From Salinisphaera japonica YTM-1 (GTDB taxonomy: Bacteria; Pseudomonadota; Gammaproteobacteria; Nevskiales; Salinisphaeraceae), in the NCBI RefSeq assembly GCF_003788585.1, contig NZ_AYKG01000021.1, positions 1 to 48,457 on the forward strand: DNA of 48,457 nt, in the 5' to 3' direction. Below, one piece after another: positions 16,661-38,485 of this stretch. A program made the translations under genes and the position numbers. Positions within the stretch are counted from its first letter, which is position 1. Each line of letters starts with the position of its first letter. The notes under the pieces were generated by a model. It saw nothing but the letters and a program-made list of their open reading frames with translations. It did not search any database and was not told the DNA's origin.

Positions 16661-16804
16661 CTGTCTTGATGACAGGATGATGACGCGTGCCGCGGACTCG
16701 TCCAGTTGATGACCCGAGATTTTGATCAGTCAGTGATCAAAGAATGACCGATAAAAATGACTAGGGAAGAAGGCCGTCTATGGATGGCCAGGGAAACTCG
16801 ACTC

Positions 16805-17725
16805 ATGCTACGACAGCGCACGCTCAAAAATTCAATTCGCGCCAGCGGCGTCGGCCTGCATACCGGTAAGAAGGTCTATATGACGCTTCGCCCGGCACAG
16901 GCTGGCAGTGGCATCGTATTCCGTCGCACCGATTTGAGCCCGATGGTGGATATTCGCGCCACGGCCGATCGGGTCGGAGATACCACGCTGGCGACAACGC
17001 TGGTACAGGATGGCGTGCACGTCAAGACCGTGGAGCATCTCATGTCGGCTCTCGCAGGGCTGGGCATCGACAACGCGGTCGTCGAGCTCTCCTGTGACGA
17101 ATTGCCGATCATGGACGGCAGTGCCGGGCCGTTCGTGTTTTTGCTGCAATCCGCCGGCATACAGGAGCTGGATGCCGCCAAGCGCTTCATGCGTATCCGT
17201 AAGTCGGTGGAAGTGCGTGACGGAGATAAATGGGCCCGCTTCGACCCGTTCGATGGCTTCAAGGTCAATTTTTCGATTGAGTTCGATCATCCGGCGTTTT
17301 CGAAGGAAACGCAGTCAGCCACGGTTGACTTCTCGACGACGTCGTTCGTGCGAGAGGTCAGCCGGGCACGGACATTTGGTTTCATGCGTGATATCGAGTA
17401 TATGCGCCAGAACGATCTGGCCCGCGGTGGCTCGATGGACAACGCCGTGGTGCTTGACGACTATCGCGTGCTCAACGCCGACGGCCTGCGTTACGACAAC
17501 GAGTTCGTCAGGCACAAGATTCTCGATGCGATCGGCGATCTGTATCTGACCGGCCGGGGCATGATCGGGAGCTACTCCGGGTTCAAATCGGGCCACGCCC
17601 TCAACAACAAGCTGGTTCGGGCGCTGCTCGATAATCCCAAGGCCTGGGAAGAGATCACCTTCGATGCGCCCGAGGCGTTGCCGATCTCTTATATCAATGC
17701 CCAGCCGGTGACCGTGGCGGCTTAG
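16805..17725 (+). CDS. lpxC: UDP-3-O-acyl-GlcNAc deacetylase LpxC
   Basis: LpxC is the Zn-dependent deacetylase that commits UDP-3-O-acyl-GlcNAc to lipid A synthesis. The product has the N-terminal motif [17 protein letters not shown] near residue 16, the zinc motif VEHLMSAL near residue 77, [15 protein letters not shown] near residue 101, and the second zinc site [12 protein letters not shown] near residue 237, followed by the catalytic [13 protein letters not shown] chose ATG 16805 (306 residues) because it aligns with the usual MLKQRTLK-type N-terminus; in-frame ATGs at 16757 and 16784 would add up to 16 residues. The next gene block converges on it and holds sphingolipid genes. Confidence 0.96.
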
Positions 17726-17795: not shown

Positions 17796-18773
17796 TTACT
17801 TCAAAACCCCTTGTCGATAAAGCCGCCAGAGCACGGGCCAGCCGTAAATCAGCGGATGACGGCGCAGGCGCGGGGTGACTTCGATCGTGACGCCGGTATG
17901 GCGCGCCAGTTTGTCGGCGCCGTAATCCACCGCGTCACCAAATGTGAAACAGGCTTTCGATAAACGCGCGACCGATAGTAAACGCCCGATCGGACGGCGC
18001 GCCGACCAGAGCCGTCGTGCCTGGCGTCGTCGGGCCGCCGATGCCTGCCAACGCATCAGGCCGCGATCATCGATGTGCACGGCGAGATCGAGTAAATCGA
18101 TCGCATCGCGGGCACGTCGAGCATATTCAGCGCTGTATTGGGCCGTGATGCGCGTGGTGCGCTCATCGGTCTCGGCTCGAAGCTCGCCACCATAGCTCAG
18201 CGCCAGGCAGCGCGCGAAAACCTCGGCCGGCGCCAGCGGGGCATGCAGTACCGGCAGGCTCTCCTCGAGCAGCGTGACGACCGCCTGGCCACAGTGCATG
18301 CGCAGGCGCTCGTGAATGACGGTATCACGGGCATGGACGATGGCCACCGGCTGTGCCAGGCGGCCCCAGAGCCCGGAGGTCAACGCATCGCGACAGCCAT
18401 AGGCCAGCTCGGCTTCGCTGATGACCGCGTACTTGCAGCGCAGCCGCGACGGCTTGTCGGCGCCGGTATTGGGGGCGGCGTCGGCGGCCTCCAGGTAATA
18501 CACGTTGGGCGGGACAAGACGATTGGCGGCCGCGCTCAGCCGGCTATCGTGGGCCCGGCGATAGTCGTCGACGACGACATAGAAATCCACGAGGCCCTCG
18601 CGGATATCGCCACTGCGCAGGCAGCTGCCATAGAAGATCACCCCGAGGACGCTGGCGCCGTGGCGTGTCTTGATGGCCGTGAGAAACGGCGCCAGTGCCT
18701 CGGCGTTGTCGAATCGACAGGGCCCGGCCAGTGCGGCCAGTCGCGCGCTCTTGAAGGCCACGTTTTCGTTCAT
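17796..18773 (-). CDS. TAM41-like lipid-phosphate cytidylyltransferase candidate
   Basis: The product (325 residues) has a nucleotidyltransferase-fold core: FYGSCLRSGD near residue 47 followed by GLVDFYVVVDDY near residue 60, with the acidic residues expected for Mg-NTP binding. Further on, PPNVYYLEA and LRCKYAVIS plus GLWGRLAQPVAIV resemble the mitochondrial CDP-diacylglycerol synthase TAM41/Mmp37 (its KYGVIS and GRLQKPV blocks). TAM41 makes CDP-diacylglycerol from phosphatidic acid and CTP. Here the gene is last in an operon with a lipid kinase, coupled to it by TGATG, so its substrate may be a phosphorylated sphingolipid. The family call is by eye; the substrate is inference. A GTG at 18776 is an alternative start. 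Confidence 0.6.
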   Translation of the reverse strand: MNENVAFKSARLAALAGPCRFDNAEALAPFLTAIKTRHGASVLGVIFYGSCLRSGDIREGLVDFYVVVDDYRRAHDSRLSAAANRLVPPNVYYLEAADAAPNTGADKPSRLRCKYAVISEAELAYGCRDALTSGLWGRLAQPVAIVHARDTVIHERLRMHCGQAVVTLLEESLPVLHAPLAPAEVFARCLALSYGGELRAETDERTTRITAQYSAEYARRARDAIDLLDLAVHIDDRGLMRWQASAARRRQARRLWSARRPIGRLLSVARLSKACFTFGDAVDYGADKLARHTGVTIEVTPRLRRHPLIYGWPVLWRLYRQGVLK

Positions 18774-19753
18774 CACGACAGCCCCACGAACGATAGCCGG
18801 CCGGCCACCGACAGACGCAGCGGGCCGTCGGCGCTGCGGTGCTGGAAGAATTCGCCGTCGACGATATAGCCGCCGTCAAAACACAGCGACAGCGTATGGC
18901 TGTTATGGCTGACGTAGCCGTCATGGCCGTCGTGGGCCTTGCCGAAGGGACGCTTGCCCCGGACCACGGCCGGCAGGCGCCAGAACAGACGCGGCGCGCC
19001 GTGGCGAATCGCGGTCCAACGCAACGGCGCGCTTTCCTCGCCCCAGAACGGGTTGAAGCGCAGAACCAGCCGGTGCAGGGTCGAGACGACGATCAGCAAC
19101 GTATCACCGTCCAGGCGGCGGTGCGGGCCGTCGTCGGCGCTCAGCGGGGTCGGGGTGAAATGTCGACGATCGCCTATGATCACTGATTTCACGAAGCGCA
19201 GGAACGCCAGCGCGGGGCCGACCTCGCCGCGTAGTCCCACGCTGTGCAGCCGTTTCTGGGTGTGCTCGACGGCGTGATGAATCGCGCCGGCGCCAAAGAA
19301 CATGCCGGCGATGGCCGGTGCCCCGTCGGCCGGATCGATACGCAGGACATCCCGATCACGCAGGCGCGCCGAGCGGTGGCCGGCGGCCCAGTCGCACAGC
19401 GGCTGCCAGCCGTCGTGGCGGACATCGACAAAGCCGGCATCGTTGGCCGTCATGTTGGTGCTGCCGGTAGGAATCAGCGCGATGTCCGGCGGCGTGTCGA
19501 AAACGGTTTTGATCAATATTTCGCCGAGCACACACTGCACGGTGCCATCGCCGCCGGCGATAGCCAGCAGATCGACGCCGGCTGCGGCCAGCCGGGCCAC
19601 GGCCGCGCGGATCTCCTCGACCGTATTGGCCTCGATCGCGGGTACATCGAGCGGGAGGGGATGATGCCCCCATCGACGCCGATGACGCCCGCTCTGTGCA
19701 TTGTAGATGATGCCCAGCCGGCGCGGCGTGTCGGCATACGCTTTACGAACCAT
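18773..19753 (-). CDS. Diacylglycerol/ceramide-kinase-family lipid kinase
   Basis: The protein (326 residues) has the lipid kinase fold: an N-terminal nucleotide-binding part with IIYNAQSGRHRRRWG near residue 15, the catalytic loop LAIAGGDGTVQCVLGE near residue 63, LIPTGSTNMTANDAGF near residue 92, and a C-terminal beta-rich lipid domain ending DGGYIVDGEFF. This family (YegS/DgkB/LCB5-like) phosphorylates diacylglycerol, ceramide or sphingoid bases. Given the neighbouring sphingolipid genes, a ceramide kinase role like that reported for Caulobacter CpgB is the likeliest inference. ATG 19753 has a GGAG ribosome site. The stop overlaps the next gene by one base. Confidence 0.75.
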   Translation of the reverse strand: MVRKAYADTPRRLGIIYNAQSGRHRRRWGHHPLPLDVPAIEANTVEEIRAAVARLAAAGVDLLAIAGGDGTVQCVLGEILIKTVFDTPPDIALIPTGSTNMTANDAGFVDVRHDGWQPLCDWAAGHRSARLRDRDVLRIDPADGAPAIAGMFFGAGAIHHAVEHTQKRLHSVGLRGEVGPALAFLRFVKSVIIGDRRHFTPTPLSADDGPHRRLDGDTLLIVVSTLHRLVLRFNPFWGEESAPLRWTAIRHGAPRLFWRLPAVVRGKRPFGKAHDGHDGYVSHNSHTLSLCFDGGYIVDGEFFQHRSADGPLRLSVAGRLSFVGLS

Positions 19754-19808
19754 GCCGGCTCCAGACGATATGAGACGCGTATTCTAGACGTTTGATGCGC
19801 GCCATCGG

Positions 19809-20591
19809 CTAGTGGCGTGCGCTCAGTATGGCTTCGACCTGGCGTAAATCGGCCACGGTGTCGACGTCGATCGCGGCTTCGGGCGTTGTCAAAAGCGTTG
19901 GCGCCACGCGGACATCGAAACGCCGGGACAACCCGGAAAACGCCTGCTCGATCGACAGTCGGCGCAGGGCGTAGCGCGCCAGTGCGCCCCAGCCGAGCAT
20001 GCCCGAGACCACGCGGGCCGGATGCTTGCGTTCGTCTTCGACGCGCCGCCAGGCATCGACCAGAACACGGCCACGGGCTTTATGAATAGCGAACAGGTTG
20101 CAGCCACAGTACCCGCGGCCGCCAAGCTTTATCGCGGTGCGCCGGGACTCGGGGTAGGCACTGGATACACGCGCCCGATCGATCAGCCCGACGGCCAGAT
20201 CGACATCGTCGCGCGGCGTGCACATGGCGGTGATCATGTCGTGGGTCAAAAGCGCATGATCGGCGGTGGTGATCAGCACCGGGCGATCGGCGTCGATACC
20301 CGCCAGGGCGGTCATCGCACTTGCCACGGGCGAGTCCTCGGGGGCCAGCCAGCGTGCGCCGCTGGTTGCAATCAGCGAGGCCAGCGTCGGATTGGCGGCC
20401 ACGATGTCTGCGCTGGGACCGACGATATGACAGTGCGCAAGCTGTGGCGCGCTGTTCACTGTCTCCAGAATCCGGGCCAGTAACGGCTGGCCGGCGATCG
20501 AGGCCATGGCTTTGCAGCCGGCGCCGGCGGCCTGGGCGACGGGATCGTCGGCGCCGCGATCACCGGCCAGTATGATGATATCCCAACGCAT
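19809..20591 (-). CDS. MobA-like NTP-transferase (CpgD-like candidate)
   Basis: A 260-residue GT-A-fold nucleotidyltransferase. The N-terminus has the abbreviated NTP loop ILAGDRGADDP, then AMASIAGQPLLARILET, and a central LITTADHALLT with the metal-binding acidic residue, all as in MobA/IspD/CpgD-type enzymes that activate a sugar- or acid-phosphate with NTP. In Caulobacter a nucleotidyltransferase near the ceramide synthase gene makes CDP-glycerate for ceramide diphosphoglycerate; this gene directly follows the ceramide-synthase candidate (TGATG overlap) and could do the same. Substrate and nucleotide cannot be read from sequence. A GTG at 20594 is an alternative start. A 55-base gap separates it from the kinase. 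Confidence 0.65.
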   Translation of the reverse strand: MRWDIIILAGDRGADDPVAQAAGAGCKAMASIAGQPLLARILETVNSAPQLAHCHIVGPSADIVAANPTLASLIATSGARWLAPEDSPVASAMTALAGIDADRPVLITTADHALLTHDMITAMCTPRDDVDLAVGLIDRARVSSAYPESRRTAIKLGGRGYCGCNLFAIHKARGRVLVDAWRRVEDERKHPARVVSGMLGWGALARYALRRLSIEQAFSGLSRRFDVRVAPTLLTTPEAAIDVDTVADLRQVEAILSARH

Positions 20592-21739
20592 CACAGGCGT
20601 TTTTCCAGCATACGATAAGTCTTGTAGACGTGGCCGCCGATCGACTCGATGATATCGCGCATGCCCTGATTGTCATCGAGAATCCATGACAGTTCACTGG
20701 CGTTGACGCCGCGTGCCACCAACGCCTGCTCGACCGCGCCGATCACGCCGTAGGCCAGGGCAGCGCCCATGGGGCTGTTCTGATAGCGCTGGCGAACGCC
20801 CATCAGCGGTACACGAATACTTTTGGGAAACCGTACCTTCAACCGCCAGAGCAGCTTGGCGATCGCCAGCGGGCTCAGGCGCCCGTTGATATCCCGGGCG
20901 GCCTCGTTGAGATTGGGCAGCGCCACGATGAAGGCGGCCGGTTCGCCGTCGACCTCGGCGATCTGCACCAGCTCATCGTCGATCAAGAGCTTGAGTGTGC
21001 TGCCCAGATCGTCGAACTCGGCCTCGGTGAACGGCACGAAGCCCCAGTTATTGGCCCAGGCATCGTTGAAGATATCGCGCAGGACGACGAGATCGTCTGC
21101 GTAATGCTTGCGATCGATCGGGCGGATATGGATCCGCTTGGCATAACGGGCCAGCAGCCGCTGCATCACCCGGGGGCGCTCGAACGGCAGAGGCAACCAG
21201 TAGGCCAGCATATCCACGGCCTTCGTATAGCCCTGGGCCTCAAGATGCGCCAGATAATAATCGCGCCCGTGGGGCATCATCATCATGGGCGGCGTATCAA
21301 AGCCGTCGATGAGCAGGCCGCACTCATCGTTGATCGTGAGATTGAACGGGCCCTGGACACGGTCGATGTCTCGCTCATCCAGCCAGGCTTGTGCCGTGGC
21401 GATCAATGCCGCGCTCGCGCGCGGGTCATCAATTGTTTCGAACATGCCGAAAAAACCGATGCGCTGGTTGTTTTCCGGCGGGCGAAGCGCATCGATCTGG
21501 GCCGTGATGCGCCCGACGTCGCGGCCGTCCTGGACCGCGATCCATGCCTGCCATGTCAGGTGCGTAAACACAGGATTGTGTTTTTCTGACAAATGCAGGC
21601 TACGCTCGAGCCGGATGGGGGCAACCCATTCGGGCCGATCGGCGTAGAGATCGTGTGTCAGCGCTATGAATCGCGCGCGTCTGGCCCGCGAATTCACGGC
21701 TACGATCGTAACCGCCCCCCGGCTGTGCGAATACGCCAT
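20591..21739 (-). CDS. GNAT-like acyltransferase, candidate bacterial ceramide synthase
   Basis: A 382-residue soluble protein of the long GNAT-like type (YghO-like). Recognisable blocks are RARFIALTHDLYADRPEWVAPI near the N-terminus, RVQGPFNLTINDECGLLIDG near the middle, PMMMMPHGRDYY, and a C-terminal acetyltransferase-like part with SELSWILDDNQGMR. Bacterial ceramide synthase of Caulobacter belongs to this kind of protein and N-acylates the long-chain base. The gene opens the leftward operon, divergent from the acyl-ACP ligase–CerR–ACP–SPT operon, which supports that role. ATG 21739 has a GAGAG ribosome site about 9 bases upstream; GTG 21745 is the alternative. Confidence 0.7.
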   Translation of the reverse strand: MAYSHSRGAVTIVAVNSRARRARFIALTHDLYADRPEWVAPIRLERSLHLSEKHNPVFTHLTWQAWIAVQDGRDVGRITAQIDALRPPENNQRIGFFGMFETIDDPRASAALIATAQAWLDERDIDRVQGPFNLTINDECGLLIDGFDTPPMMMMPHGRDYYLAHLEAQGYTKAVDMLAYWLPLPFERPRVMQRLLARYAKRIHIRPIDRKHYADDLVVLRDIFNDAWANNWGFVPFTEAEFDDLGSTLKLLIDDELVQIAEVDGEPAAFIVALPNLNEAARDINGRLSPLAIAKLLWRLKVRFPKSIRVPLMGVRQRYQNSPMGAALAYGVIGAVEQALVARGVNASELSWILDDNQGMRDIIESIGGHVYKTYRMLEKRL

Positions 21740-22233
21740 GGCCACGCTCTCTTGGATACATTCAAGCCCGGCAATATACGCGACGCGCCGGCCGTGTTCA
21801 GCCCGCGATCGTGGTAGATGCAGCGAGTGTGATGCGCATGTGTCGTTCTGAACGATTTTTTAATTCTATTTCGGGCATCATTGGCAGCTCGGTGAGCCAT
21901 GTATCGCGCGATGGTCGATGAGCCGATTGAAGCCACGTCGGTATTTTGTAACGCGCCGGCTAATACAGATGATATGCGGTGTGCTAGTGCAAAGCGTAGC
22001 GTGTTGCAGTACGATTCCGCCGTTAAGGTTGCGTGCCATGCTTTTCATACAACGTGAGTCAGCGTTATCAGATGTTTCGGTGCATGCACGGCCAGTGCGC
22101 CAGCCGGCCCGATTCGACGCTCAAATGATTGCATGCAAGTAACGGCACGCCGTGGCAGCGACGCTGGATTCACGCTGGCGCTTATATGGTCGGCAGTATC
22201 TTGCAAGTGCCCGTACACAGGACAGGTAACTCG
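21740..22233. other. Divergent control region between the two sphingolipid operons
   Basis: About 490 bases without a supported gene separate two divergent operons. The stretch from about 21840 to 22080 is clearly richer in A and T than the flanking genes, as expected of promoters. AT-rich -10-like words exist on both strands, such as TATATG near 22183 on +, and TAGAAT read on the - strand near 21865-21870. None pairs with a convincing -35 box. No strong operator palindrome was seen. Short open frames here lack ribosome sites and homology and are left out. Confidence 0.5.
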
Positions 22234-24006
22234 ATGATCAAGCCAACGCCTACCGAACAGCGGTTGACGATGCGTCGTGCCGATTTCGCGACGCTCGGCG
22301 AAGCGCTCGATTACGCAGGCGAAGGCGATACGGGCTTCAACTTCTACTCCGGTCGTGGCGAGCTCGTGCACGCGATGCCGTATCGCGAATTGCGTGATCA
22401 GGCCCGCGTGACAGCCCGGCGTTTTCTATCGTTGAACCTGGCCGAAGGCAGTCGCGTGGCACTCGTGGCCGATACCGTGCCGGGCTTCATGATCGCTTTC
22501 TTTGCCTGCCAGTACGCCGGCTATGTGCCGGTGCCGCTGCCGGTGACCGTGGGCCTGGGCAGTCGCGAGGCTTACACGCGCCAGCTCAAATCCCTGCTGG
22601 CCGGTTGTGATGCCGACGTGGCTCTCGCGCCCGAAGCGTTCATGAGTTTTCTCGAGGATGCGGCGGCCGATGTGCGCCTGGCGCATCTGGGCAGCTACGA
22701 AACACTGGCGGAGCTGCCCGAGGCCGAGGGGGCGCTCGCCGAGCCGGACGTCACCCGCACGGCCTATCTGCAATATACCTCGGGCAGCACGCAGTTCCCG
22801 CGCGGCGTGGTGATCACCCAGGCACAAGTCATGCAGAACCTGTCGAGCATCCTCGAGCTCGGCGTACAGATGAAAGAGGACGACCGTCTGGTCTCCTGGT
22901 TGCCGCTGTATCACGACATGGGGCTTGTGGGTTTCATGCTGGCCGCACTGACCAGCCAGCGCTCGGTCGATTATCTGGCCACGCGTGATTTCGCCATGCG
23001 CCCGCGCCAATGGTTGTCACTGATCAGCCGTAATCGCGGCACGATCTCGTTCAGCCCGTCGTTCGGCTACGAGCTGTGTGCCCGGCGTATTCGACACAAC
23101 GCCGACGATTTCGATCTGTCGAGCTGGCGCATCGCCGGTGCGGGGGCCGAGACCATTCGCCCGGATTCGCTGGGCCGTTTTGCTGAAACGCTGGCCCCGG
23201 CACAGTTCGATCCCAGAGCGTTCGTGGCCTGCTACGGCATGGCCGAATGCTCATTGGCGATCAGCTTCGCGCCGCTGGATACCGGGCTTGCCACGGACAG
23301 CATCGATGCCGAAGCGCTGGCGGAGTCGGGCACGGCCGAGCCGGCTGTTGCCGGCCAGCGCTCTTCACGCTTCGTTGACTGTGGCGACGTGTTGCCCGAG
23401 TACGACTTCGAAATTCGCGCCGACGACGGCCAGGTGCTGGACGAGCGCCAGATCGGTGCCGTGCACGTGCGCGGGCCCAGCGTCATGTCCGGTTATTTCC
23501 AGCGCCCGGAAGAGACCGAGCGCGTATTGTCCGAAGACGGCTGGCTAAATACGGGCGATCTGGGTTATTGCATCGGCCGGCGTATCGTGATCACCGGCCG
23601 AGCCAAGGATCTGATCATCGTCAACGGGCGCAATATCTGGCCACAGGATCTGGAATGGCTGGCTGAGGCACAGCCGGAGTTGCGTCCGGGCGATGCGCTG
23701 GCATTCGCTGCCCCGGCCGATGACGGCCAGGATGCTGCGGTGCTGGTTATCCAGTGTCGTGTGCGTGAAGACGCCGAGCGTCATGCGTTGATCGGGCGCC
23801 TGGAAGGGCTGATGCGCCGTGAATTCGGCGTGGAGTGCCTGGTCGAGGCCGTGGCCCCGCATACCCTGCCGCGCACCTCGTCGGGCAAGCTGTCGCGCGC
23901 CGGGGCCCGTAACGACTATATCCAGCGTCTGACCGATCGCGTCCATGCCCGTCGCCAGGACCACACCACGGCCAACGAGGCGGCCGGCGACCGACAGGCC
24001 GGCTAG
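22234..24006 (+). CDS. Fatty acyl-AMP ligase / acyl-ACP synthetase (AasR-like)
   Basis: A 590-residue adenylate-forming enzyme of the fatty acyl-AMP ligase group. It has the ATP loop LQYTSGSTQFPRGVVITQ near residue 181, SWLPLYHDMGLVGFML near residue 227, YGMAECSLAISF near residue 335, NTGDLGY, GRAKDLIIVNGRNIWPQDLE near residue 457, and a C-terminal lysine region LPRTSSGKLSR. It would activate a fatty acid and load it onto the ACP encoded downstream. The same order (ligase, reductase, ACP, SPT) is known from Caulobacter ceramide loci. ATG 22234 has an AGGACAGG ribosome site; the frame is open 105 bases further upstream, but that extension looks unlike protein. Confidence 0.88.
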   Translation: MIKPTPTEQRLTMRRADFATLGEALDYAGEGDTGFNFYSGRGELVHAMPYRELRDQARVTARRFLSLNLAEGSRVALVADTVPGFMIAFFACQYAGYVPVPLPVTVGLGSREAYTRQLKSLLAGCDADVALAPEAFMSFLEDAAADVRLAHLGSYETLAELPEAEGALAEPDVTRTAYLQYTSGSTQFPRGVVITQAQVMQNLSSILELGVQMKEDDRLVSWLPLYHDMGLVGFMLAALTSQRSVDYLATRDFAMRPRQWLSLISRNRGTISFSPSFGYELCARRIRHNADDFDLSSWRIAGAGAETIRPDSLGRFAETLAPAQFDPRAFVACYGMAECSLAISFAPLDTGLATDSIDAEALAESGTAEPAVAGQRSSRFVDCGDVLPEYDFEIRADDGQVLDERQIGAVHVRGPSVMSGYFQRPEETERVLSEDGWLNTGDLGYCIGRRIVITGRAKDLIIVNGRNIWPQDLEWLAEAQPELRPGDALAFAAPADDGQDAAVLVIQCRVREDAERHALIGRLEGLMRREFGVECLVEAVAPHTLPRTSSGKLSRAGARNDYIQRLTDRVHARRQDHTTANEAAGDRQAG

Positions 24007-24010
24007 CGTC

Positions 24011-26401
24011 GTGGCACGGCTTGCCGTCACCGGCGCTTCGGGCTTCATCGGGCGCGCAATCACCACGGCATTGATCGATGCCGGACACTCGGTCACCGCC
24101 CTCGTGCGTCGCCCGGAAGCAGCCGGAGAAGTGCGTGCTCTCGGCGCCGCGCCGATTCTTGGCGGCCTGGACCAGCCGGAACGCCTGGCCGCGCTGTGCG
24201 CACGGGCGACGGCCGTCATCCACGTGGCCGGTGCCACACGCGGAATCGATTACGCCGATTTCGAGCGGGTCAACGTGGTGGGCAGCGCGGCTGTCTTTGC
24301 GGCAGCCGAGCGTGCTGGCCTGCCGGTGCTGGCTATCTCGTCGCTGGCCGCACGAGCGCCGGATATCTCGCACTACGCGTTGTCCAAGCGGGCCATGGAG
24401 CGCCTGCTGGAGGGTGCCGCGGCGCCGCGGAGTCTTGTGCTGCGCCCGCCGGCGGTCTATGGCCCCGGCGACACCGAAATCGCGCCGTTGTTTGCCGCGA
24501 TGCGCCGCGGCCTGGCCGTGACACCCGGACGCACGAATGCCCGTTTCTCCATGCTGCACGTCCGGGATCTGGCCGAGGCCGTTTGTGCCTGGGTGGCGCA
24601 GGGCTGTAGCGCAACCGGCGTCCACGAGCCCGATGACGGCGCGGCCGGCGGCCATGACTGGAACGAGATCATCGCCGAGGCATCGGTGCAGCTGAACCGT
24701 CGTGTGCGGCGTATCGCCGTACCGGGCCGGGCACTGGGCTGGGCCGGGGCGCTCAACGTGGCGGCGGCACGTCGCCTGGGCTACGCGCCGATGCTCACGC
24801 CGGCCAAGGCCGCGGAACTGACGCAGCCCGATTGGGTGGCCGACACCGCCTCGCTGGCTGGCGCTCTGGACTGGCAGCCGCGCATCACGCTTTCTGCGGG
24901 TCTGGCCGAAATGCTGGGCACGCACGCATTTGACAAGGAATCCATCGATGAGCAGCCGCTACGACGAGATCTATACCCATCTGGCCCAGCTTCTCAAGCC
25001 CATGGTGGCGGAGTCGGCGACGATCACGCCGGCCGCGCGTCTGGTCGACGATCTGGGGCTGGACTCGGTGCAGGTCATGGAAGTGATGATGGAGCTGGAG
25101 GATCGCCTGGACACCTCGATTCCGCTGAACTTCCTGCCGGACGTGCAGACGATGGATCAGCTGGTACGCGCGCTGGAGGAGGCCATCGGCCAGTAAGCCT
25201 GTTCGACAAGTTCGCCCCGATCGCCGATGTCCGACGCCAGATGCGTGATGCCGGCATCGAGCCCCTGGCCGTGCCCATGGAGCGTGTCCTCTCGGCGACC
25301 GAGGCCGTGATTCGCGGCAAGCGCACGATCCTGGCCGGCAGCAACAACTATCTGGGGCTGACCTTCGACGAGGATTGCGTGGAGGCCTCGGTGGCCGCGG
25401 TGCGCAACCAGGGCACCGGCACCACCGGTTCGCGCATGGCCAACGGCTCCTACGACGGGCATCTGGCGCTTGAGGCGGAGCTGGCCGCGTTTTATGACAT
25501 GCCGCATGCGCTGGTCTTTTCCACCGGCTACCAGGCCAATCTGGGCATGCTCTCCACGCTGGTGGGCCCGAAAGACACCGTGATGCTGGACGCCGACTGT
25601 CATGCCAGCATCTACGACGGGCTGCGCCTCGGCGGGGCCAAGACACTGCGGTTCAAGCACAACGACCCGCGGGATCTGGACAAGCGCCTGGGCCGCCTGG
25701 GCGAGGCCGCCCAGCACACGCTGGTGGTTGTTGAAGGCATCTACAGCATGCTGGGCGATGCGGCGCCGCTGGCCGAAATCGTGGGCGTGGTGAAAAAACA
25801 CGGCGCCTATGTCCTGGTCGACGAGGCCCACTCCATGGGGATCTGCGGCGTCCACGGGCGCGGCGTGGTCGAGGCCGAAGGCGTGCTGGGGGCCGTGGAT
25901 TTCATCGTCGGCACGTTTTCCAAGTCGCTGGGCTCGGCGGGCGGCTTCTGTGTCAGCCCGCATGCCGATCTGGACATGATTCGCTATGCCAGCCGGCCTT
26001 ATATCTTCACCGCCTCCATGGTGCCGTCGGTGATCGCCTCGACGCGGGCGGCCCTGCAACGTCTGGCCACCGACGACACCTTGCGTGACCGGATCTGGGC
26101 CAACGCCAACCGGCTGCACGCCGGGCTGTCGAATCTGGGTTTCACGATCGCCGCCGCGCCGGGGCCGGTCGTGGCTTGTGTATTCGACTCGCGCGAGGCC
26201 GCGCTGGGTATGTGGCAGGGCCTGCTGGATCGCGGTGTTTATGTGAACCTGATGCTGCCGCCGGCCACGCCCAACGGGCAGTGTCTGGTACGCACGAGCC
26301 TCAGCGCGGGCCACAGCACCGCGCAGATCGAGACCCTGATCGCGGCCTTTGGTGAAACGGCTCTGGCACTGAAGAAATACGCGGCCGCGGCGGCCGAGTA
26401 G
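24011..26401 (+). CDS. CerR–SPT continuous reading frame (reductase joined in frame to serine palmitoyltransferase)
   Basis: One uninterrupted frame of 796 residues. Residues 1 to about 308 are an NAD(P)-binding epimerase/reductase (extended SDR): VTGASGFIGRA near residue 5 and the Tyr-X3-Lys motif HYALSKRAM near residue 120, matching ketoceramide reductase CerR. Residues 309 to about 395 are Gly/Ala/Arg/Asp-rich and look like noise, because this stretch is the acp gene read in the wrong frame. From residue 396 the frame is a complete serine palmitoyltransferase. So either no stop codon ends cerR and a fusion protein is made, or SPT is initiated internally (see the spt entry). A sequence error near 24930 or 25196 could also explain it: a TGA at 24931 is one base out of frame. 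GTG 24011 is the likely start. Confidence 0.6.
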   Translation: MARLAVTGASGFIGRAITTALIDAGHSVTALVRRPEAAGEVRALGAAPILGGLDQPERLAALCARATAVIHVAGATRGIDYADFERVNVVGSAAVFAAAERAGLPVLAISSLAARAPDISHYALSKRAMERLLEGAAAPRSLVLRPPAVYGPGDTEIAPLFAAMRRGLAVTPGRTNARFSMLHVRDLAEAVCAWVAQGCSATGVHEPDDGAAGGHDWNEIIAEASVQLNRRVRRIAVPGRALGWAGALNVAAARRLGYAPMLTPAKAAELTQPDWVADTASLAGALDWQPRITLSAGLAEMLGTHAFDKESIDEQPLRRDLYPSGPASQAHGGGVGDDHAGRASGRRSGAGLGAGHGSDDGAGGSPGHLDSAELPAGRADDGSAGTRAGGGHRPVSLFDKFAPIADVRRQMRDAGIEPLAVPMERVLSATEAVIRGKRTILAGSNNYLGLTFDEDCVEASVAAVRNQGTGTTGSRMANGSYDGHLALEAELAAFYDMPHALVFSTGYQANLGMLSTLVGPKDTVMLDADCHASIYDGLRLGGAKTLRFKHNDPRDLDKRLGRLGEAAQHTLVVVEGIYSMLGDAAPLAEIVGVVKKHGAYVLVDEAHSMGICGVHGRGVVEAEGVLGAVDFIVGTFSKSLGSAGGFCVSPHADLDMIRYASRPYIFTASMVPSVIASTRAALQRLATDDTLRDRIWANANRLHAGLSNLGFTIAAAPGPVVACVFDSREAALGMWQGLLDRGVYVNLMLPPATPNGQCLVRTSLSAGHSTAQIETLIAAFGETALALKKYAAAAAE
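24948..25196 (+). CDS. Acyl carrier protein dedicated to sphingolipid synthesis
   Basis: An 82-residue acidic acyl carrier protein. The phosphopantetheine site is LVDDLGLDSVQVMEVMMELE with Ser40 as the modified residue, followed by the acidic helix II and the typical helix III/IV region. ATG 24948 has an AAGGA ribosome site (24935-24939) 8 bases upstream, so this frame is clearly translated. The gene lies entirely inside the open frame that joins cerR to spt, in a different frame. Context suggests it carries the acyl chain from the upstream ligase to SPT, as in Caulobacter-type loci. It ends just before the SPT coding sequence. Confidence 0.92.
   Translation: MSSRYDEIYTHLAQLLKPMVAESATITPAARLVDDLGLDSVQVMEVMMELEDRLDTSIPLNFLPDVQTMDQLVRALEEAIGQ
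25199..26401 (+). CDS. spt: Serine palmitoyltransferase (alternative separate reading of the spt part)
   Basis: SPT is the PLP enzyme of the alpha-oxoamine synthase family that condenses serine with an acyl thioester to 3-keto-dihydrosphingosine. Homology starts with LFDKF right after the ACP stop, then AGSNNYLGLTFDE, GTGTTGSRMANGSYDGH, VDEAHSMGICGVHGRG and the PLP-lysine motif GTFSKSLGSAGG (Lys codon 25922-25924). No ATG, GTG or TTG is at the expected start. The choices are CTG 25199, the first in-frame ATG at 25241 (which would remove the conserved LFDKF), or synthesis as part of the cerR frame. BioF or Kbl are less likely given the ACP, ligase and reductase around it. Confidence 0.8.
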   Translation: MFDKFAPIADVRRQMRDAGIEPLAVPMERVLSATEAVIRGKRTILAGSNNYLGLTFDEDCVEASVAAVRNQGTGTTGSRMANGSYDGHLALEAELAAFYDMPHALVFSTGYQANLGMLSTLVGPKDTVMLDADCHASIYDGLRLGGAKTLRFKHNDPRDLDKRLGRLGEAAQHTLVVVEGIYSMLGDAAPLAEIVGVVKKHGAYVLVDEAHSMGICGVHGRGVVEAEGVLGAVDFIVGTFSKSLGSAGGFCVSPHADLDMIRYASRPYIFTASMVPSVIASTRAALQRLATDDTLRDRIWANANRLHAGLSNLGFTIAAAPGPVVACVFDSREAALGMWQGLLDRGVYVNLMLPPATPNGQCLVRTSLSAGHSTAQIETLIAAFGETALALKKYAAAAAE

Positions 26402-26410
26402 CCAGGCGCC

Positions 26411-27166
26411 GTGACCGGCGATGGCCGCGAGACAACGCTTGTCACCGGGGCCTCGGCCGGGATCGGCTATCACCTGGCCGAGCGGCTGGCCGCGGCCGGC
26501 GATCGTCTTATCCTGTTGGCCCGGCGCCGCGCCGAGCTGGACACGCTGGCCGCCGCGATCCAGGAACGCGGTGGCACGGCCATCGTGGCTGTGGCCGATG
26601 TGACGGACCGAGCCGCTCTTGGCGCGGCCCTTGATACGGCCGTGGCACGAACCGGGCCGATCACGCGGCTGGTGGCCAATGCCGGGGGCGGGGCGCCGAC
26701 GCGTATCGAGACATTCGATCTTGCGGCGGTGCTGACCACGCTGCGGCTGAACCTGGACGGCACGATTCATTGCATCGATTATGTCCTGCCCGCGATGCGC
26801 GCGGCCGGGCAGGGCCATATCGTGGTGATGGGCAGCCTGGCCGCCACCCGCGGCCTGCCCACGGCCGCGGCTTATTCCGCGGCCAAGGCAGGTATCGGCC
26901 GGTTTGCCGAATCCCTGGCCGTGGACTGTCGGGCCGCGGGCATCGACGTCACGCTGCTCGAGCCGGGCTTTATCACCAAGCCGGGCAAGCGCGTGAAGTG
27001 GCCGCGCATGTCGATGGCGCGCGCAACCGCGGCCATGACGCGGGTGATTCTCCGGCGTCGCCCGTATTGGCGTGGCCCGTGGATTCTGATAGTTGCCGGC
27101 GAGGTGCTGCGGTTGCTACCGTCCCGCGCCTATATTCGTTTGATGGCCGGTCGCGGGCGTTCGTGA
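26411..27166 (+). CDS. Short-chain dehydrogenase/reductase, possible 3-ketosphinganine reductase
   Basis: A 251-residue classical SDR. The NADP-binding motif TLVTGASAGIGYHLAERL is near residue 6, LVANAGGG near residue 91, the catalytic Ser in VVMGSLAATRGL near residue 142, and Tyr-X3-Lys in AAYSAAKAGIGRFAESLA near residue 154. The hydrophobic C-terminus (WILIVAGEVLRLLP) suggests membrane contact, as in eukaryotic KDSR, which reduces 3-ketodihydrosphingosine. It follows spt by 9 bases. With a CerR-type reductase already in the locus, its step is uncertain: it may act on the free base or on a fatty acyl intermediate. The start is GTG 26411. Confidence 0.8.
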   Translation: MTGDGRETTLVTGASAGIGYHLAERLAAAGDRLILLARRRAELDTLAAAIQERGGTAIVAVADVTDRAALGAALDTAVARTGPITRLVANAGGGAPTRIETFDLAAVLTTLRLNLDGTIHCIDYVLPAMRAAGQGHIVVMGSLAATRGLPTAAAYSAAKAGIGRFAESLAVDCRAAGIDVTLLEPGFITKPGKRVKWPRMSMARATAAMTRVILRRRPYWRGPWILIVAGEVLRLLPSRAYIRLMAGRGRS

Positions 27167-27209
27167 TCGGGTATTGTCGCCTGCGCTGACAGGCGTTTCA
27201 GAGGTGGTT

Positions 27210-27971
27210 ATGAGTAACGACTCGAAGAACCTGGCCGATATGCGTCGCAAGACGATCAAAAAATACGGCAAGAAGATGTTTCGCGGCACGCTGATGGATT
27301 TTCTGTCCTCGCAGTCGCGTATCCCGGACGAGCCGGTACTCGATAACGCCTTGTTCCCCTGGGCCGAAGACCTGCGCTCGCAGTGGACGGTCATGCGCGA
27401 CGAGCTGGATACGCTGCTCGAGCGTCGTGCCGCGCTGCCGAGCTTCCAGGAGATCAGCCCGGATCAGGCCAAGATCTCCACCGACGATCAATGGAAGACA
27501 TTCATGCTTTGGGGCTTTGGCACCCGCATGGATTTCGGCTGTGAACTGTGCCCGCAGACCGCGGCAGCGCTGGAGCGTGTGCCGGGCCTGTCGAACGCGT
27601 TCTTCTCGATTCTGGGCCCGGGCAAGCATATTCCGCGTCATCGCGGCGTGACCAAGGGCCTGGTGCGCTGTCATATAGGTCTGCGGGTGCCGGATTCGTC
27701 CGAGCGTTGCATGATCCAGGTCGATGACGTGGATTGCCCGTGGGAAGAGGGCGGCATGTTCTTCTTTGACGACACCTATCCGCACGAGGTCTGGAACGAC
27801 ACCGATGGCTATCGTGCGGTGTTGTTGTTCGATATCGAGCGCCCGATGGGCCTGCCCGGCAAGGCCGTATCGCGCGGCATGATCGCGGCCCTGCGGCGTA
27901 CCGGCTATTTCCGCGACGCGCTGGCCAACCAGCGCGCCTGGGAAGCACGTTACAAGGCAGCGATGGCCTGA
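27210..27971 (+). CDS. LpxO-like aspartyl/asparaginyl beta-hydroxylase family dioxygenase
   Basis: A 253-residue Fe(II)/2-oxoglutarate enzyme of the Asp_Arg_Hydrox family. Conserved blocks are FFSILGPGKHIPRHRGVTKG (His140, His144) then VRCHIGLRVP, and MFFFDDTYPHEVWN (His192) followed by YRAVLLFDIERP with the co-substrate Arg. In Salmonella the related LpxO adds a 2-hydroxyl to a lipid A acyl chain. Here the neighbours favour 2-hydroxylation of the N-acyl chain of a sphingolipid or of lipid A; I cannot decide which. No N-terminal membrane helix is obvious, unlike LpxO. ATG 27210 has a GAGGTGG ribosome site. It probably belongs to the operon starting at 22234. Confidence 0.8.
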   Translation: MSNDSKNLADMRRKTIKKYGKKMFRGTLMDFLSSQSRIPDEPVLDNALFPWAEDLRSQWTVMRDELDTLLERRAALPSFQEISPDQAKISTDDQWKTFMLWGFGTRMDFGCELCPQTAAALERVPGLSNAFFSILGPGKHIPRHRGVTKGLVRCHIGLRVPDSSERCMIQVDDVDCPWEEGGMFFFDDTYPHEVWNDTDGYRAVLLFDIERPMGLPGKAVSRGMIAALRRTGYFRDALANQRAWEARYKAAMA

Positions 27972-28090: not shown

Positions 28091-29029
28091 ATGCCACGAT
28101 TCTATTTCTCGTCGCAGCGCAGCCAGGATGTCTCCGGCTGGCTGGCACGGCCGATGTGGCTGGCCGAGGCCGCTGCGATCGGCCTCGTGGTGGCCGTGGT
28201 GCGCGCGCTGCCGCTGCGCGGTGCACTCGCGCTGGGTGCATGGCTGGGTCACGTGCTGGGGCGTTTCTCCCCGCGGATCGACAAGGTTCGCAGTAATCTC
28301 AGAGTCGTGTTCTCGAGCGCAGACGCGCCCGAGCTTGATCGGCTGACCCGGGCCTCGTTCGCCAACGTCGGCGTGGCGTTTGCCGAGCTTGTCAACCTGC
28401 GTCGTATCTGGCGGGCACGCCGTAGCCGGCTGGAATTCAACGAAATGCCCGGTGCCACGACCCCCACGGCCGAACGACGCACGGTGTTCGTCACCGCCCA
28501 TCTGGGGCCCTGGCAGATGACGCCGCTCATTGGTCCGGAATACGGCATGACGATTCCGGTGATCTATGCGCCCGAGCAGAATCCCTACGTCGATCGCCTG
28601 CTCAATCGGTTTCGGGCTGTCTTTGATGCCCCGCTTGTCGCGCGCGATGGTGGCATGCGGGCGTTCGTGCGCGCGCTACGCCAGGGCCAGTCGATCGGCC
28701 TGACGGTCGATACCCGGCTGGATTCGGGCGAGTCGGTCTCGTTCTTCGGCGAGCCGGCGATGACCAACACCATGCCGGCGCGCCTGGCGCTGAAATTCGA
28801 CTGTGATCTGGTGCCGGTTCTGGCCGAGCGTCTACCGGGCGGGCGCTTTCGGGTGAATATCCATCCGCCGATCACCCCGGCTGATCTGCAGGCGCCCAAC
28901 GATGATCAGGTGTTGGATATGTCGCGCCAGATCAATGCCCTGTTCGAGCGCGAGATTCTGGCACGGCCTGAGCAGTGGCTGTGTCTGAAGCGTCGCTGGC
29001 CCAAGCAGGTGTATCAGCACCATGCCTGA
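28091..29029 (+). CDS. LpxL/HtrB-family acyltransferase with altered catalytic motif
   Basis: A 312-residue member of the lysophospholipid/lipid A acyltransferase family, with one N-terminal membrane segment (about residues 22-40). The family motif His-X4-Asp/Glu appears as HLGPWQ: His137 is kept but residue 142 is Gln (codon 28514-28516), where Glu or Asp normally forms the catalytic dyad. The downstream DGGMRAFVRALRQGQSIGLTVDTRL and FFGEPAMTNTMPARLALK blocks are otherwise well conserved. It may be a divergent or non-catalytic acyltransferase, or may act on another lipid such as a sphingolipid. ATG 28091 is 119 bases after the hydroxylase, so it could be co-transcribed. Confidence 0.85.
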   Translation: MPRFYFSSQRSQDVSGWLARPMWLAEAAAIGLVVAVVRALPLRGALALGAWLGHVLGRFSPRIDKVRSNLRVVFSSADAPELDRLTRASFANVGVAFAELVNLRRIWRARRSRLEFNEMPGATTPTAERRTVFVTAHLGPWQMTPLIGPEYGMTIPVIYAPEQNPYVDRLLNRFRAVFDAPLVARDGGMRAFVRALRQGQSIGLTVDTRLDSGESVSFFGEPAMTNTMPARLALKFDCDLVPVLAERLPGGRFRVNIHPPITPADLQAPNDDQVLDMSRQINALFEREILARPEQWLCLKRRWPKQVYQHHA

Positions 29030-31574: not shown

Positions 31575-32663
31575 GTGACGCGCCCGGCCAAGGATTGGCC
31601 CGCGGCGGGGCCCACCGTCTGGGTGCTGCTCGGTGAGGGCGCCGGCGGAAACGCACAGATGATTGCGTTGGCTGAGGCGCTGGGCTGGTCTTATGAGACG
31701 CGCCAGCTGGACTGGAACCGGCTCAACCACCTGCCTAACCCGCTGATCGGCGCGCGGGCGACCACGCTGTCGTCCAGGGCGGCCGCGTTGGCGCCGCCGT
31801 GGCCGGATCTGGTGATCGCGGCGTCGCGGCGCTCGGCACCGATTGCGCGCTGGATCAAGAAACAATCCGGCGGGCATACGCGGTTGGTGCATCTGCTGCA
31901 TACGCAAATGCCGCTTGCCGCCTTCGATCTGGTGATCACCACGGCCCAGTTTCGTGTGCCCGAGGCAGCGAACGTCTTGCGCGCCACGCTGCCCTTGAAC
32001 GTGATCGACGCCCGGCGCCAGGCCGAGGCGGCCAAGCGCTGGGCGCCCCGGCTGGCGCATCTGCCCCGGCCTTGGACCGCACTCTTGGTCGGCGGCGACA
32101 GTTCCAGCCATCGGCTGGACGTGGCAACGGCCGAGCAGCTGGCTGATCGTGTCAACGCTGTGGCCGGCGCGAATCAGGGCAGCGTGCTGGCAACGACGAG
32201 CCGGCGTACGCCGGCAGCAGCCACCGCGGCGATCGCGGCGCGGCTAGTCGCGCCGCATTATCTGCATCATTGGCGCGCTGATGATGCGGATAACCCGTAT
32301 CCGGCGTTTCTGGCGCTGGCCGATCGGTTTGTCGTGACCGGCGATTCGGCCTCGCTGCCGGCCGAGGCCGCGGCAACGGGGCGCCCGGTCGACTTGTTCG
32401 AATGGCCGGCCCGGCGTTCTCCGCGATCGTTGCCCGCTATGGTCAAGCCGATTCATCGTGCTTTAGTCTATGGGGGCTGGCACAAGCCGAGACGCGATTT
32501 CGCGGCCTTTCACCAGGGCCTGCGCGATGCCGGGCTTGTCGATACGCCCACGCCGGCCCCGCCGCCGCCCGATATGGCACGCGCGGTGGCGGCCATCGAG
32601 CAGCTGATGGGCTGGCACACAGGCACGCCCGATTCTTATTCTTCGACCGGATACGCATCATGA
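31575..32663 (+). CDS. ELM1-family (GT-B-like) protein
   Basis: A 362-residue stand-alone ELM1-family protein. It shares its layout with the C-terminal domain of the previous gene: TVWVLLGEGAGGNAQMIALAEALGW at the N-terminus, WPDLVIAASRRSAPIARWIKK, ALLVGGDSSSHRLD, and a C-terminal ADRFVVTGDSASLPAEAAATGRPV resembling the sugar-nucleotide site of GT-B enzymes. The pair looks like a tandem duplication, one copy fused to extra domains. GTG 31575 lies one base after the upstream stop; the longer open frame into the previous gene is a shadow. The end overlaps the next gene by ATGA. The biochemical role of bacterial ELM1 proteins is not established. Confidence 0.75.
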   Translation: MTRPAKDWPAAGPTVWVLLGEGAGGNAQMIALAEALGWSYETRQLDWNRLNHLPNPLIGARATTLSSRAAALAPPWPDLVIAASRRSAPIARWIKKQSGGHTRLVHLLHTQMPLAAFDLVITTAQFRVPEAANVLRATLPLNVIDARRQAEAAKRWAPRLAHLPRPWTALLVGGDSSSHRLDVATAEQLADRVNAVAGANQGSVLATTSRRTPAAATAAIAARLVAPHYLHHWRADDADNPYPAFLALADRFVVTGDSASLPAEAAATGRPVDLFEWPARRSPRSLPAMVKPIHRALVYGGWHKPRRDFAAFHQGLRDAGLVDTPTPAPPPPDMARAVAAIEQLMGWHTGTPDSYSSTGYAS

Positions 32664-33382
32664 CCTATCTCGATTTCGACAAGCTGGCCGCGATGGACGG
32701 CAAGGCGTTTCGTAATACCGATCCGTATCCGTGGACCAATCCGGCCGCACTGCTGACCGAGGCCGGCTATGCCGCGCTGCTGGATTCGATGCCCACGACC
32801 GACCAGATGACGCCGCAGTTCGGCCAGGCCCGCTCGCACGGGCAAAAACCACACGATCGCTACTCGCTGGAATATCGGCCCGGCATCGATATCTCGCCGG
32901 CCTGGCAGGGTTTCATCGATGAGCTGCAGTCCGACGAATACCACGCCTTCATCAAGAAGATGTTCGGGCGAGGCCTGTTCAAGCTGAACTTCCACTGGCA
33001 CTACGCCCCCACCGGCGCGTCGGTATCCCCGCACTGTGATGCCCAGCGCAAGCTCGGCTCGCATATCTTCTATTTCAGCTCGCCAGAGACTTGGTCGCCC
33101 CAATGGGGCGGGGATACCGTGATTCTGGATGACCACGGCGCCTTTGATCGGAAATCGGCCCCGGCGTTCGAGGATTTCCCGGATGCCTACGAGGGCGAAA
33201 GCGTGGGCAACTACAGCCTGCTGTTCCAGCGCCAGGCCAAGTCCTGGCACGGCGTGCGCGAGATCACCTGCCCGGAAGGCATGCACCGCAAGGTCTTCAT
33301 TGTCGTGATCAACGATCGTGTGCGGGCCGCGGTACGCCGTGTGAAGGGCCGTTTGAAGGGCGAGGAACTGCGTGATGTCTGA
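32660..33382 (+). CDS. 2-oxoglutarate/Fe(II)-dependent oxygenase-like protein
   Basis: A 240-residue protein with the double-stranded beta-helix oxygenase pattern: FHWHYAPTGASVSPHCDAQR supplies His125-X-Asp127, and RQAKSWHGVREI supplies the distal His197, with Arg210 (GMHRKVFIVVIND) placed to bind 2-oxoglutarate. These spacings match small-molecule or prolyl-type 2OG oxygenases. Substrate unknown; by context a surface lipid or glycan. ATG 32660 overlaps the previous stop by ATGA, which fixes the start despite an open upstream frame. Confidence 0.75.
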   Translation: MTYLDFDKLAAMDGKAFRNTDPYPWTNPAALLTEAGYAALLDSMPTTDQMTPQFGQARSHGQKPHDRYSLEYRPGIDISPAWQGFIDELQSDEYHAFIKKMFGRGLFKLNFHWHYAPTGASVSPHCDAQRKLGSHIFYFSSPETWSPQWGGDTVILDDHGAFDRKSAPAFEDFPDAYEGESVGNYSLLFQRQAKSWHGVREITCPEGMHRKVFIVVINDRVRAAVRRVKGRLKGEELRDV

Positions 33383-34373
33383 GACCGGTGAGACGGTGGC
33401 GCCGCCGGATCCGGCGCGCTCGACCGTCGTGCCGGTGCTGGGGGCCGGGCGTAGCGGTACATCGGCGATCACGCGCGGGCTGGCCGCACTGGGTGTCGAT
33501 CTGGGCGACAAGCTGCGTCGGCCCGGCGGCAAGAACCCGACCGGGTTTTTCGAAGATAACGACGTGCTGGCGATCAGCAAACGCTTGAAGCGAGCGCTGG
33601 GCATCCGGGGGCACAGCGTGCGCCTGCTGGATGACGCCGTATTCGAAACCCCGGCGCTGCGCGCGATCCAGCAGCAGGCCATCGCCACGCTGGGCGCGCG
33701 TTTTGGCAATACCCCGCTCTGGGGCTATAAATACTCGCGCACGCTACGCACCATGCCGTTCTGGGAGGGCATCCACGAGGCCCTGGACTTGGACGTGCGT
33801 TATGTCATCGCCCTGCGCAATCCACTGTCCGTGGCGCGCTCGCGGGGCAAGATCAACCCGCAGCGGGGCCGCCAGGTCTGGTCGGACATGGAGTGGCTGG
33901 TCAATGTGGTGCCCTATTTCTATCGCACGGCACATCGGCCCCGTGCCGTGGTCGATTTCGATCGGCTGATGGCGGATCCGAGAAGCCAGCTCGGGCGCGT
34001 CGCGCGTGATCTGGGCTTGCCGCTCGGCGTGCAGGAATCCGCGGGTATCGAAGACTACGCCACACAGTTCCTCAAACAGGACAAGCCCGCTTCACGGTTC
34101 TCGCGCGATGACCTGATCGCCGATCCGCAGGCCAATCGCTGGACCACCGAAGGCTATCGGCTACTGGACGCGGTGGCCGCCGACGAGATGTCGCTGACCG
34201 ACCCCGAATTTCTGGCGCGCTGGGAGCAGCTGGCCGAGGACGTACGCGGTCTGGGCCCGTTTCTGGCCGAGTTCGATCACATGCGCGGCGTGACCACGCG
34301 AGCCCGCTGGAACCCGGCCAGCCCGATCCACGAAGTGCGTCAGGTGTGGCGGGATCTGAAGGCCAAGGGTTAG
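33375..34373 (+). CDS. Sulfotransferase-family protein
   Basis: A 332-residue protein with the 5'-phosphosulfate-binding loop of sulfotransferases, VPVLGAGRSGTSAITRGLAALG, near residue 19, and the 3'-phosphate-binding type segment YVIALRNPLSVARSRGKIN about 135 residues later. Such enzymes move sulfate from PAPS to sugars or lipids. With the glycosyltransferase-like genes in the same run, a sulfated surface glycan or glycolipid is plausible. ATG 33375 has GAGGAA 7 bases upstream and overlaps the previous gene by 8 bases. The stop overlaps the convergent glycosyltransferase gene by 4 bases. Confidence 0.75.
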   Translation: MSETGETVAPPDPARSTVVPVLGAGRSGTSAITRGLAALGVDLGDKLRRPGGKNPTGFFEDNDVLAISKRLKRALGIRGHSVRLLDDAVFETPALRAIQQQAIATLGARFGNTPLWGYKYSRTLRTMPFWEGIHEALDLDVRYVIALRNPLSVARSRGKINPQRGRQVWSDMEWLVNVVPYFYRTAHRPRAVVDFDRLMADPRSQLGRVARDLGLPLGVQESAGIEDYATQFLKQDKPASRFSRDDLIADPQANRWTTEGYRLLDAVAADEMSLTDPEFLARWEQLAEDVRGLGPFLAEFDHMRGVTTRARWNPASPIHEVRQVWRDLKAKG

Positions 34374-38418: not shown

Positions 38419-38485
38419 CGCGCGCGGTGTGGCGTGTACGTCATATCCGCCATATCAAGCGATCCGGGCCAGACGACGAGGGTTC

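Follow-up and report, generated by a model that had tools for sequence, protein, structure and literature searches.

Among the closest described counterparts of the locus reported here is the ceramide/CPG2 cluster of Caulobacter crescentus (CC_1152–CC_1168), in which the ceramide genes are listed as separate genes (PMC11324152). The same source lists genes for ceramide and ceramide phosphoglycerate (CPG) for Azotobacter vinelandii and Pseudomonas luteola. Here we describe a related locus in a 48,457-nucleotide stretch of Salinisphaera japonica YTM-1 (NZ_AYKG01000021.1, hereafter the window), corresponding to contig C21 in a genome of 3.26 Mb (G000). In the window, the reductase CerR and serine palmitoyltransferase (SPT) share one open reading frame, and the gene of the acyl carrier protein (ACP) is nested within it.

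Compared on the basis of published descriptions, with no Caulobacter sequence compared directly, the window and the C. crescentus cluster have in common AasR, CerR, ACP, SPT, the bacterial ceramide synthase bCerS, a kinase, a CpgC-like gene and a gene resembling CC_1153. CpgA, CpgD and LptF2/LptG2 were not found in the window, and its hydroxylase belongs to PF05118, whereas that of Caulobacter is of the DesA type (CC_0202) (PMC11324152). The P. luteola locus (L118) encodes, in this order, bCerS, a CofC-like protein, a second nucleotidyltransferase (on the other strand), LptF/LptG, a CDP-alcohol transferase, a kinase, a Tam41-like protein, two OlsC-like proteins (one detected by Pfam, one by tblastn) and ELM1. 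Common to this locus and the window are bCerS beside a CofC-like gene, a CpgB–CpgC pair, the order aasR-cerR-acp-spt, OlsC-like hydroxylases and ELM1; P. luteola differs by its unfused genes and the additional nucleotidyltransferase, LptF/LptG and CDP-alcohol transferase. The CPG cluster of A. vinelandii is similar to that of P. luteola, judged by description only (PMC11324152).

Shared reading frame and nested ACP gene

The following features, all on the plus strand, make up the shared frame:

24011–26401, plus strand: CerR–SPT fusion open reading frame, 796 codons, GTG start, no internal stop
From the GTG start at 24011, plus strand: CerR (Epimerase, PF01370, 80 bits)
24923–25192, plus strand: linker segment, largely ACP-coding DNA read in a different frame, with few hydrophobic residues and low model confidence
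24948–25196, plus strand: ACP (PF00550, 36 bits), 82 amino acids, GLDS phosphopantetheine site kept
25193–26401, plus strand: SPT domain (NF047599, serine palmitoyltransferase, 607.5 bits, cut-off 500)

When read from its GTG, the CerR frame meets no stop before 26401, the end of SPT. It comprises a CerR domain (residues ~1–304), a linker (~305–394) and the SPT domain (395–796). The ACP gene (ATG at 24948, stop ending at 25196) lies entirely within this open reading frame, in the +1 frame relative to CerR and SPT. A complete second gene is present inside the first and both frames are conserved, as expected of an out-of-frame nested gene. The ATG of ACP is kept in all ten loci of the family Salinisphaeraceae that contain SPT. 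At the expected SPT start the window has no ATG, GTG or TTG (it reads GTA AGC CTG TTC); GTA occupies the site at which the sister species G441 and G449 have ATG.

The shared frame was found in six of these ten loci, from six separate genomes: the window, G442/L042, G446/L043, G438/L080 (S. hydrothermalis), G445/L130 and G448/L044. The SPT start site reads GTA in L042 and L043 and CTG in L080 and L130, while L044 carries a 14-codon insertion without ATG, GTG or TTG and has a longer linker. In the four unfused loci, G441/L045 (S. shabanensis), G449/L131, G436/L132 and G437/L133, cerR ends in its own stop codon and spt opens with an ATG. CerR of L045 is matched in frame from residue 107 onward, and the 5' part of its gene looks frame-shifted, by draft assembly error or decay. 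Genome G444 was left out of the count (bCerS present, SPT not found, contig ending soon past bCerS). In a tree of AasR, bCerS and SPT from 13 loci, the six fused loci form one clade with an ultrafast bootstrap value of 99. The fusion probably had a single origin, in which the stop of cerR was shifted out of frame and the spt start, an ATG in sister species, changed to GTA or CTG or was replaced.

Outside this clade no fusion was observed. Among the named loci surveyed (the best 80 of 99 relatives), cerR and spt are both present in 38 and adjacent on one strand in 31; four of the latter are fused (L042, L043, L044 and L080, all from the Salinisphaera clade) and the remaining 27 are not. SPT was detected at E 1e-100 in 36 of 85 genomes sampled from the order, six with open frames of 796–889 amino acids and 30 with 397–548. 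In the phylum sample it was present in 36 of 398 genomes, with an open frame of 822 in the window and of 396–561 in the other 35. The frames in both samples were measured from stop to stop, and thus bound the gene length without reading each gene. No title on an SPT fused with ACP and ceramide synthase was found in the literature, searched here and below among open-licence papers, so that a report elsewhere is possible.

The part of the linker that lies within ACP has 81–82 residues in all six fused loci, of which 83–90% are G, A, S, P, D, E, R, Q or H and 9–12% are hydrophobic. An AlphaFold model of the fusion (alignment of 36 rows, 5 of them fused) shows confident CerR and SPT domains, with predicted local distance difference test (pLDDT) values below 50 at residues 305–335 and 344–392. 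Since its predicted template modelling score is 0.55, the model does not fix the arrangement of the two domains. Based on these data we consider it about 75% probable that CerR and SPT are produced in the six genomes as one polypeptide of ~82.5 kDa with a flexible linker of ~90 residues overprinted on the ACP gene, and that ACP is translated from its own internal ATG. The fusion would then act as the working SPT.

Possible selection on the open frame and rival explanations

Each ACP gene was recoded synonymously (20,000 draws each) and scored for whether the SPT frame was left open. The resulting P values are 0.088, 0.050, 0.042, 0.0056, 0.0019 and 0.021 for the six fused loci and 0.028, 0.049, 0.0014 and 0.0048 for the four unfused loci. 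Because the six loci are not independent, a neutral codon simulation was run down the SPT tree, with each of the six observed ACP genes, already open, as root and four settings (1,500 runs per root and setting, 36,000 in total). Branch lengths in the model were those of SPT, frequencies followed F3x4, kappa and omega were fixed, and indels were not taken into account. All six tips were still open in 1 of 36,000 runs, so the frame has stayed open beyond the neutral model. The distances from the CerR start to ACP (937, 940, 946, 946, 955 and 961 nt) are all 1 mod 3, of which only the linker part is informative, and the offset between ACP and SPT is −4 in five fused loci and +38 in one. Linker lengths thus vary between species and yet stay in frame. 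The ACP protein itself is conserved (pN/pS 0.12–0.64 in 15 fused pairs).

Several observations weigh against a translated fusion or take support away from it. The low pLDDT of the linker is expected from a thin alignment, and the SPT frame is open across ACP in one of the four unfused loci as well, that of S. shabanensis. Synonymous change in ACP relative to SPT averages 0.77 in the 15 fused pairs (0.57–1.03) and 1.04 in six separate pairs (0.88–1.28); as the pairs share ancestry and the ranges overlap, this contrast is only suggestive. The absence of start codons in the overlap was rejected as evidence, since the ACP sequence leaves no alternative in four of the six fused genomes (P 1.0), and in the remaining two the odds are close to even. 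Upstream of ACP, the Shine-Dalgarno signal does not exceed that of random coding positions (P 0.17–0.54 across the six fused loci), and in the window a strong purine run (−12.1 kcal/mol) stands ahead of the old SPT start.

The last point bears on the chief rival, in which a separate SPT starts at a non-standard CTG or GTA after the ACP stop by translational coupling, and the missing CerR stop merely permits an unimportant read-through. A CTG codon at a conserved leucine near the SPT start in all six fused loci would suit such a start. Compared to 300 random positions, the purine run is strong in the window (P 0.00) and moderate in L080 (0.08) and L043 (0.10), but at the same site L042 is unremarkable (0.48) and L130 (0.87) and L044 (0.96) score poorly, so that the Shine-Dalgarno estimates give no clear answer between fusion and separate initiation. 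The insertion in L044, which supplies no ATG, GTG or TTG, and the persistence of the open frame across six genomes against neutral expectation are harder to accommodate, and we regard a separate SPT as rather unlikely. Frameshifting could also join the frames, since ACP sits between CerR and SPT in the alternate frame: a −1 shift at the ACP end would yield ACP–SPT and a +1 shift CerR–ACP, each a further fusion. None of the six loci has an X XXY YYZ heptamer in its ACP frame (a search for −1 sites; +1 sites were not tested), and ACP has its own ATG throughout the family, which makes this very improbable. That the frame of a GC-rich gene is open by chance, or that the assembly is wrong, gains some plausibility from the open frame of unfused S. 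shabanensis and from single-genome recoding odds of up to 0.088. It is set against six separate genomes, the loss of the usual SPT start in each and the single surviving run of the tree simulation, and appears just as improbable as frameshifting. The single CerR–SPT polypeptide with a nested ACP gene hence remains our preferred reading.

Gene content, ceramide enzymes and head group

The remaining features of the locus are the following:

Between lpxC (16757–17725, confirmed) and secA (38429–41305): the locus, two divergent gene sets
17796–18776, minus strand: CpgC-like gene (Tam41/CDP-diacylglycerol synthase, 20.7 bits, below the cut-off of 24)
18773–19753, minus strand: CpgB-like (ceramide) kinase with diacylglycerol kinase (DAGK) catalytic domain (PF00781, 44 bits)
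19809–20594, minus strand: CofC/MobA-like nucleoside triphosphate (NTP) transferase (PF12804, 40 bits; CofC profile match below cut-off)
20591–21745, minus strand: probable bCerS, from its tandem GNAT fold and gene neighbourhood
22234–24006, plus strand: AasR, fatty acyl-AMP/ACP ligase (NF006624, 794 bits, cut-off 600)
26411–27166, plus strand: short-chain dehydrogenase/reductase (SDR), in 10 of 10 family loci and 1 of 74 named loci outside the family
27174–27971, plus strand: OlsC/LpxO-type hydroxylase (PF05118 over cut-off; OlsC and LpxO models below theirs)
28091–29029, plus strand: LpxL-type acyltransferase, a second copy in the genome
29114–32663, plus strand: two ELM1-family (PF06258) proteins, candidate glycosyltransferases by predicted function
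32402–34373, plus strand: 2-oxoglutarate-Fe(II)-oxygenase-like and sulfotransferase-like genes, both below the Pfam cut-off, conserved in L130–L133

The first-pass annotation had recognised the ligase, reductase, ACP and SPT on one strand and a GNAT-like protein, an NTP-transferase and a lipid kinase on the other, in a locus linked to the division and cell wall (dcw) genes. Profile matches bear out the former, a fold match for bCerS together with PF12804 and PF00781 the latter, and FtsA, FtsZ and LpxC are confirmed upstream. The conserved cluster extends beyond 27971, where that annotation ended it, to about 34373, and the CpgC-like gene had not been named. On the plus strand, the order is AasR, CerR, ACP, SPT, SDR, hydroxylase, LpxL-type acyltransferase, the two ELM1-family proteins and the oxygenase-like and sulfotransferase-like proteins; on the minus strand lie bCerS, the CofC-like NTP-transferase, the DAGK-type kinase and the Tam41-like (CpgC-like) gene. 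All ten Salinisphaeraceae loci match aasR, bCerS, NTP-transferase, kinase, CpgC-like, SDR, hydroxylase, LpxL-like and ELM1-like genes. Portions of the gene order also recur in P. luteola and Halomonas ventosae, so the grouping goes beyond chance. The nearest named relatives are Salinisphaera records and one metagenome-assembled genome labelled Lysobacterales.

For the pyridoxal phosphate enzyme, BioF or Kbl had been named as the identities that would speak against a sphingolipid pathway. Both were rejected: NF047599 scores 607.5 bits against 311 each for the bioF and Kbl-type models, and the best matches in the Protein Data Bank are solved SPTs (431 bits, KBL 240). Two further SPT models stay below their cut-offs (NF047603, 483 of 670; NF047600, 336 of 640). 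The putative bCerS has no Pfam or NCBIfam match at E 0.001. Its AlphaFold model (pLDDT 90.2) best matches the tandem GNAT fold 7q3a (E 5.8e-15, TM 0.60/0.67), in agreement with the earlier GNAT assignment. Profile, fold and neighbourhood data support a complete and linked ceramide set of AasR, CerR, ACP, SPT and bCerS. Only one other ACP-like match exists in the genome, and it is weak (E 2.2e-4, 42 residues). The order of steps in the ceramide route is established. In a Caulobacter-type route, the dedicated ACP would be charged with a fatty acid by AasR, SPT would condense an acyl thioester with serine, bCerS would N-acylate the product and CerR would then reduce it.

The window retains the CofC-like gene, the kinase and the CpgC-like gene, and the CpgB and CpgC homologues lie side by side, as in P. 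luteola, where the Tam41 match of the latter exceeds the Pfam cut-off (26.8). The C. crescentus cluster is described as having a CofC-like gene (CC_1153), a further nucleotidyltransferase (CC_1152), a CDP-alcohol transferase (CC_1159) and a gene resembling CDP-diacylglycerol synthase (CC_1161) (PMC11324152). CCNA_01210, named CpgD, is a phosphoglycerate cytidylyltransferase (PMC12275187) and corresponds to CC_1152, as follows from the gene numbering. The NTP-transferase of the window was rejected as CpgD: its one match in the P. luteola locus is the CofC-like gene next to bCerS (43%, 205 bits), and the second nucleotidyltransferase, of PF00483/PF12804 type, lies beyond that gene. It is thus probably of the CC_1153 type.

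No full-length CpgA was detected in 17 family genomes with the P. luteola query, which in G000 matched only an 84-residue motif in a short protein of a phosphonate cluster on contig C12 and, by chance, a site inside lpxC (E 9.4e-4). The P. luteola CpgD-type query, run against the same 17 genomes, had three matches in G000. Two are phosphonate-cluster genes; the third was rejected as MurU-type (247 bits, cut-off 250, beside an amgK-like gene). The CDP-alcohol transferase and nucleotidyltransferase genes on C12 were rejected as CpgA and CpgD because they sit with a phosphoenolpyruvate (PEP) mutase and a thiamine pyrophosphate (TPP) enzyme. This cluster (L135, C12:100000–118000), with a PEP mutase joined to a nucleotidyltransferase, the TPP enzyme and the CDP-alcohol transferase, perhaps makes a phosphonolipid. 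A second LptF/LptG pair was not found in G000 (2 genes, versus 4 each in G441 and G449).

As far as the sequence allows, the window therefore lacks the full Caulobacter CPG2 head-group set. Of the Caulobacter-type set claimed earlier, AasR, CerR, ACP, SPT, bCerS and a CpgB-like kinase stand, and CpgD does not. The anionic ceramide proposed as product is plausible given the CpgB-like and CpgC-like genes, which probably direct the formation of a ceramide-1-phosphate derivative. In Caulobacter, the CofC-like gene is needed for CPG2 rather than CPG. Mono-phosphoglycerate ceramide (CPG) would be the simplest guess, and would leave the retained CofC-like gene unexplained.

The product of 27174–27971 is a candidate ceramide acyl hydroxylase; no paper on LpxO with ceramide was found. 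Outside the family, 13 of the 30 loci that span at least 21 kb have OlsC/LpxO-type hydroxylases beside bCerS; such enzymes recur at the window, L118, L079, L046, L051, L094 and L119. ELM1-family proteins, possible ceramide glycosyltransferases, have matches in 9 of the 30 loci (L118, L094, L101 and L119 among those named). The LpxL-type acyltransferase might acylate a hydroxylated ceramide; the stronger LpxL family match of the genome is on contig C45, not in the cluster. The oxygenase-like and sulfotransferase-like products might decorate the lipid. In L133 (G437), a cytochrome P450 gene (14529–15869) lies between the NTP-transferase and kinase genes.

Prevalence and significance

A sphingolipid locus in a gammaproteobacterium had been considered notable in itself. 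That view is weakened by the published clusters and by a class-wide sample of 369 genomes, in which 25, counting G000 itself, gave a bCerS match at E 1e-10 or better. Of these matches, 20 have E <1e-60 and the other five are weak and perhaps not bCerS. The order sample has matches in 37 of 85 genomes, including 11 of 17 family genomes; bCerS was not found in 5 of the other 13 genus genomes. A search for Salinisphaera with sphingolipid returned only papers that are off subject by title. The unusual part is the fused, nested arrangement, which the first-pass annotation did not report.

Only a small number of overlapping reading frames have been established in bacteria (PMC9841429). Thermus rnpA-rpmH likewise has a conserved gene fully nested out of frame in another, although its start codons stand side by side at the 5' end, whereas ACP lies mid-gene over the fusion linker (PMC9841429). 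Bacillus subtilis comS is a same-strand, out-of-frame gene within the enzyme gene srfA; it serves another process, competence, whereas host and nested gene of the window belong to the same pathway (PMC12350097). Many annotation tools discard coding sequences inside larger genes (PMC12350097), and an ACP of this kind could therefore be missed.

The case offers two frames whose functions are known and belong to one pathway, together with an unfused sister state for comparison. Named records for testable strains exist with Salinisphaera hydrothermalis C41B8 and Salinisphaera sp. Q1T1-3, and in a sphingolipid cluster without CPG2-specific genes the head group becomes a testable question. Taken together, sequence comparison leads us to favour, with somewhat less assurance than the single polypeptide itself, a bifunctional CerR–SPT with a linker overprinted on the gene of its own ACP, so that one stretch of mRNA would give rise to the tether of the two enzymes as well as to the carrier protein they share. 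This stretch, which selection would have kept open in six species, would thereby fix the ratio and the neighbourhood of these proteins.

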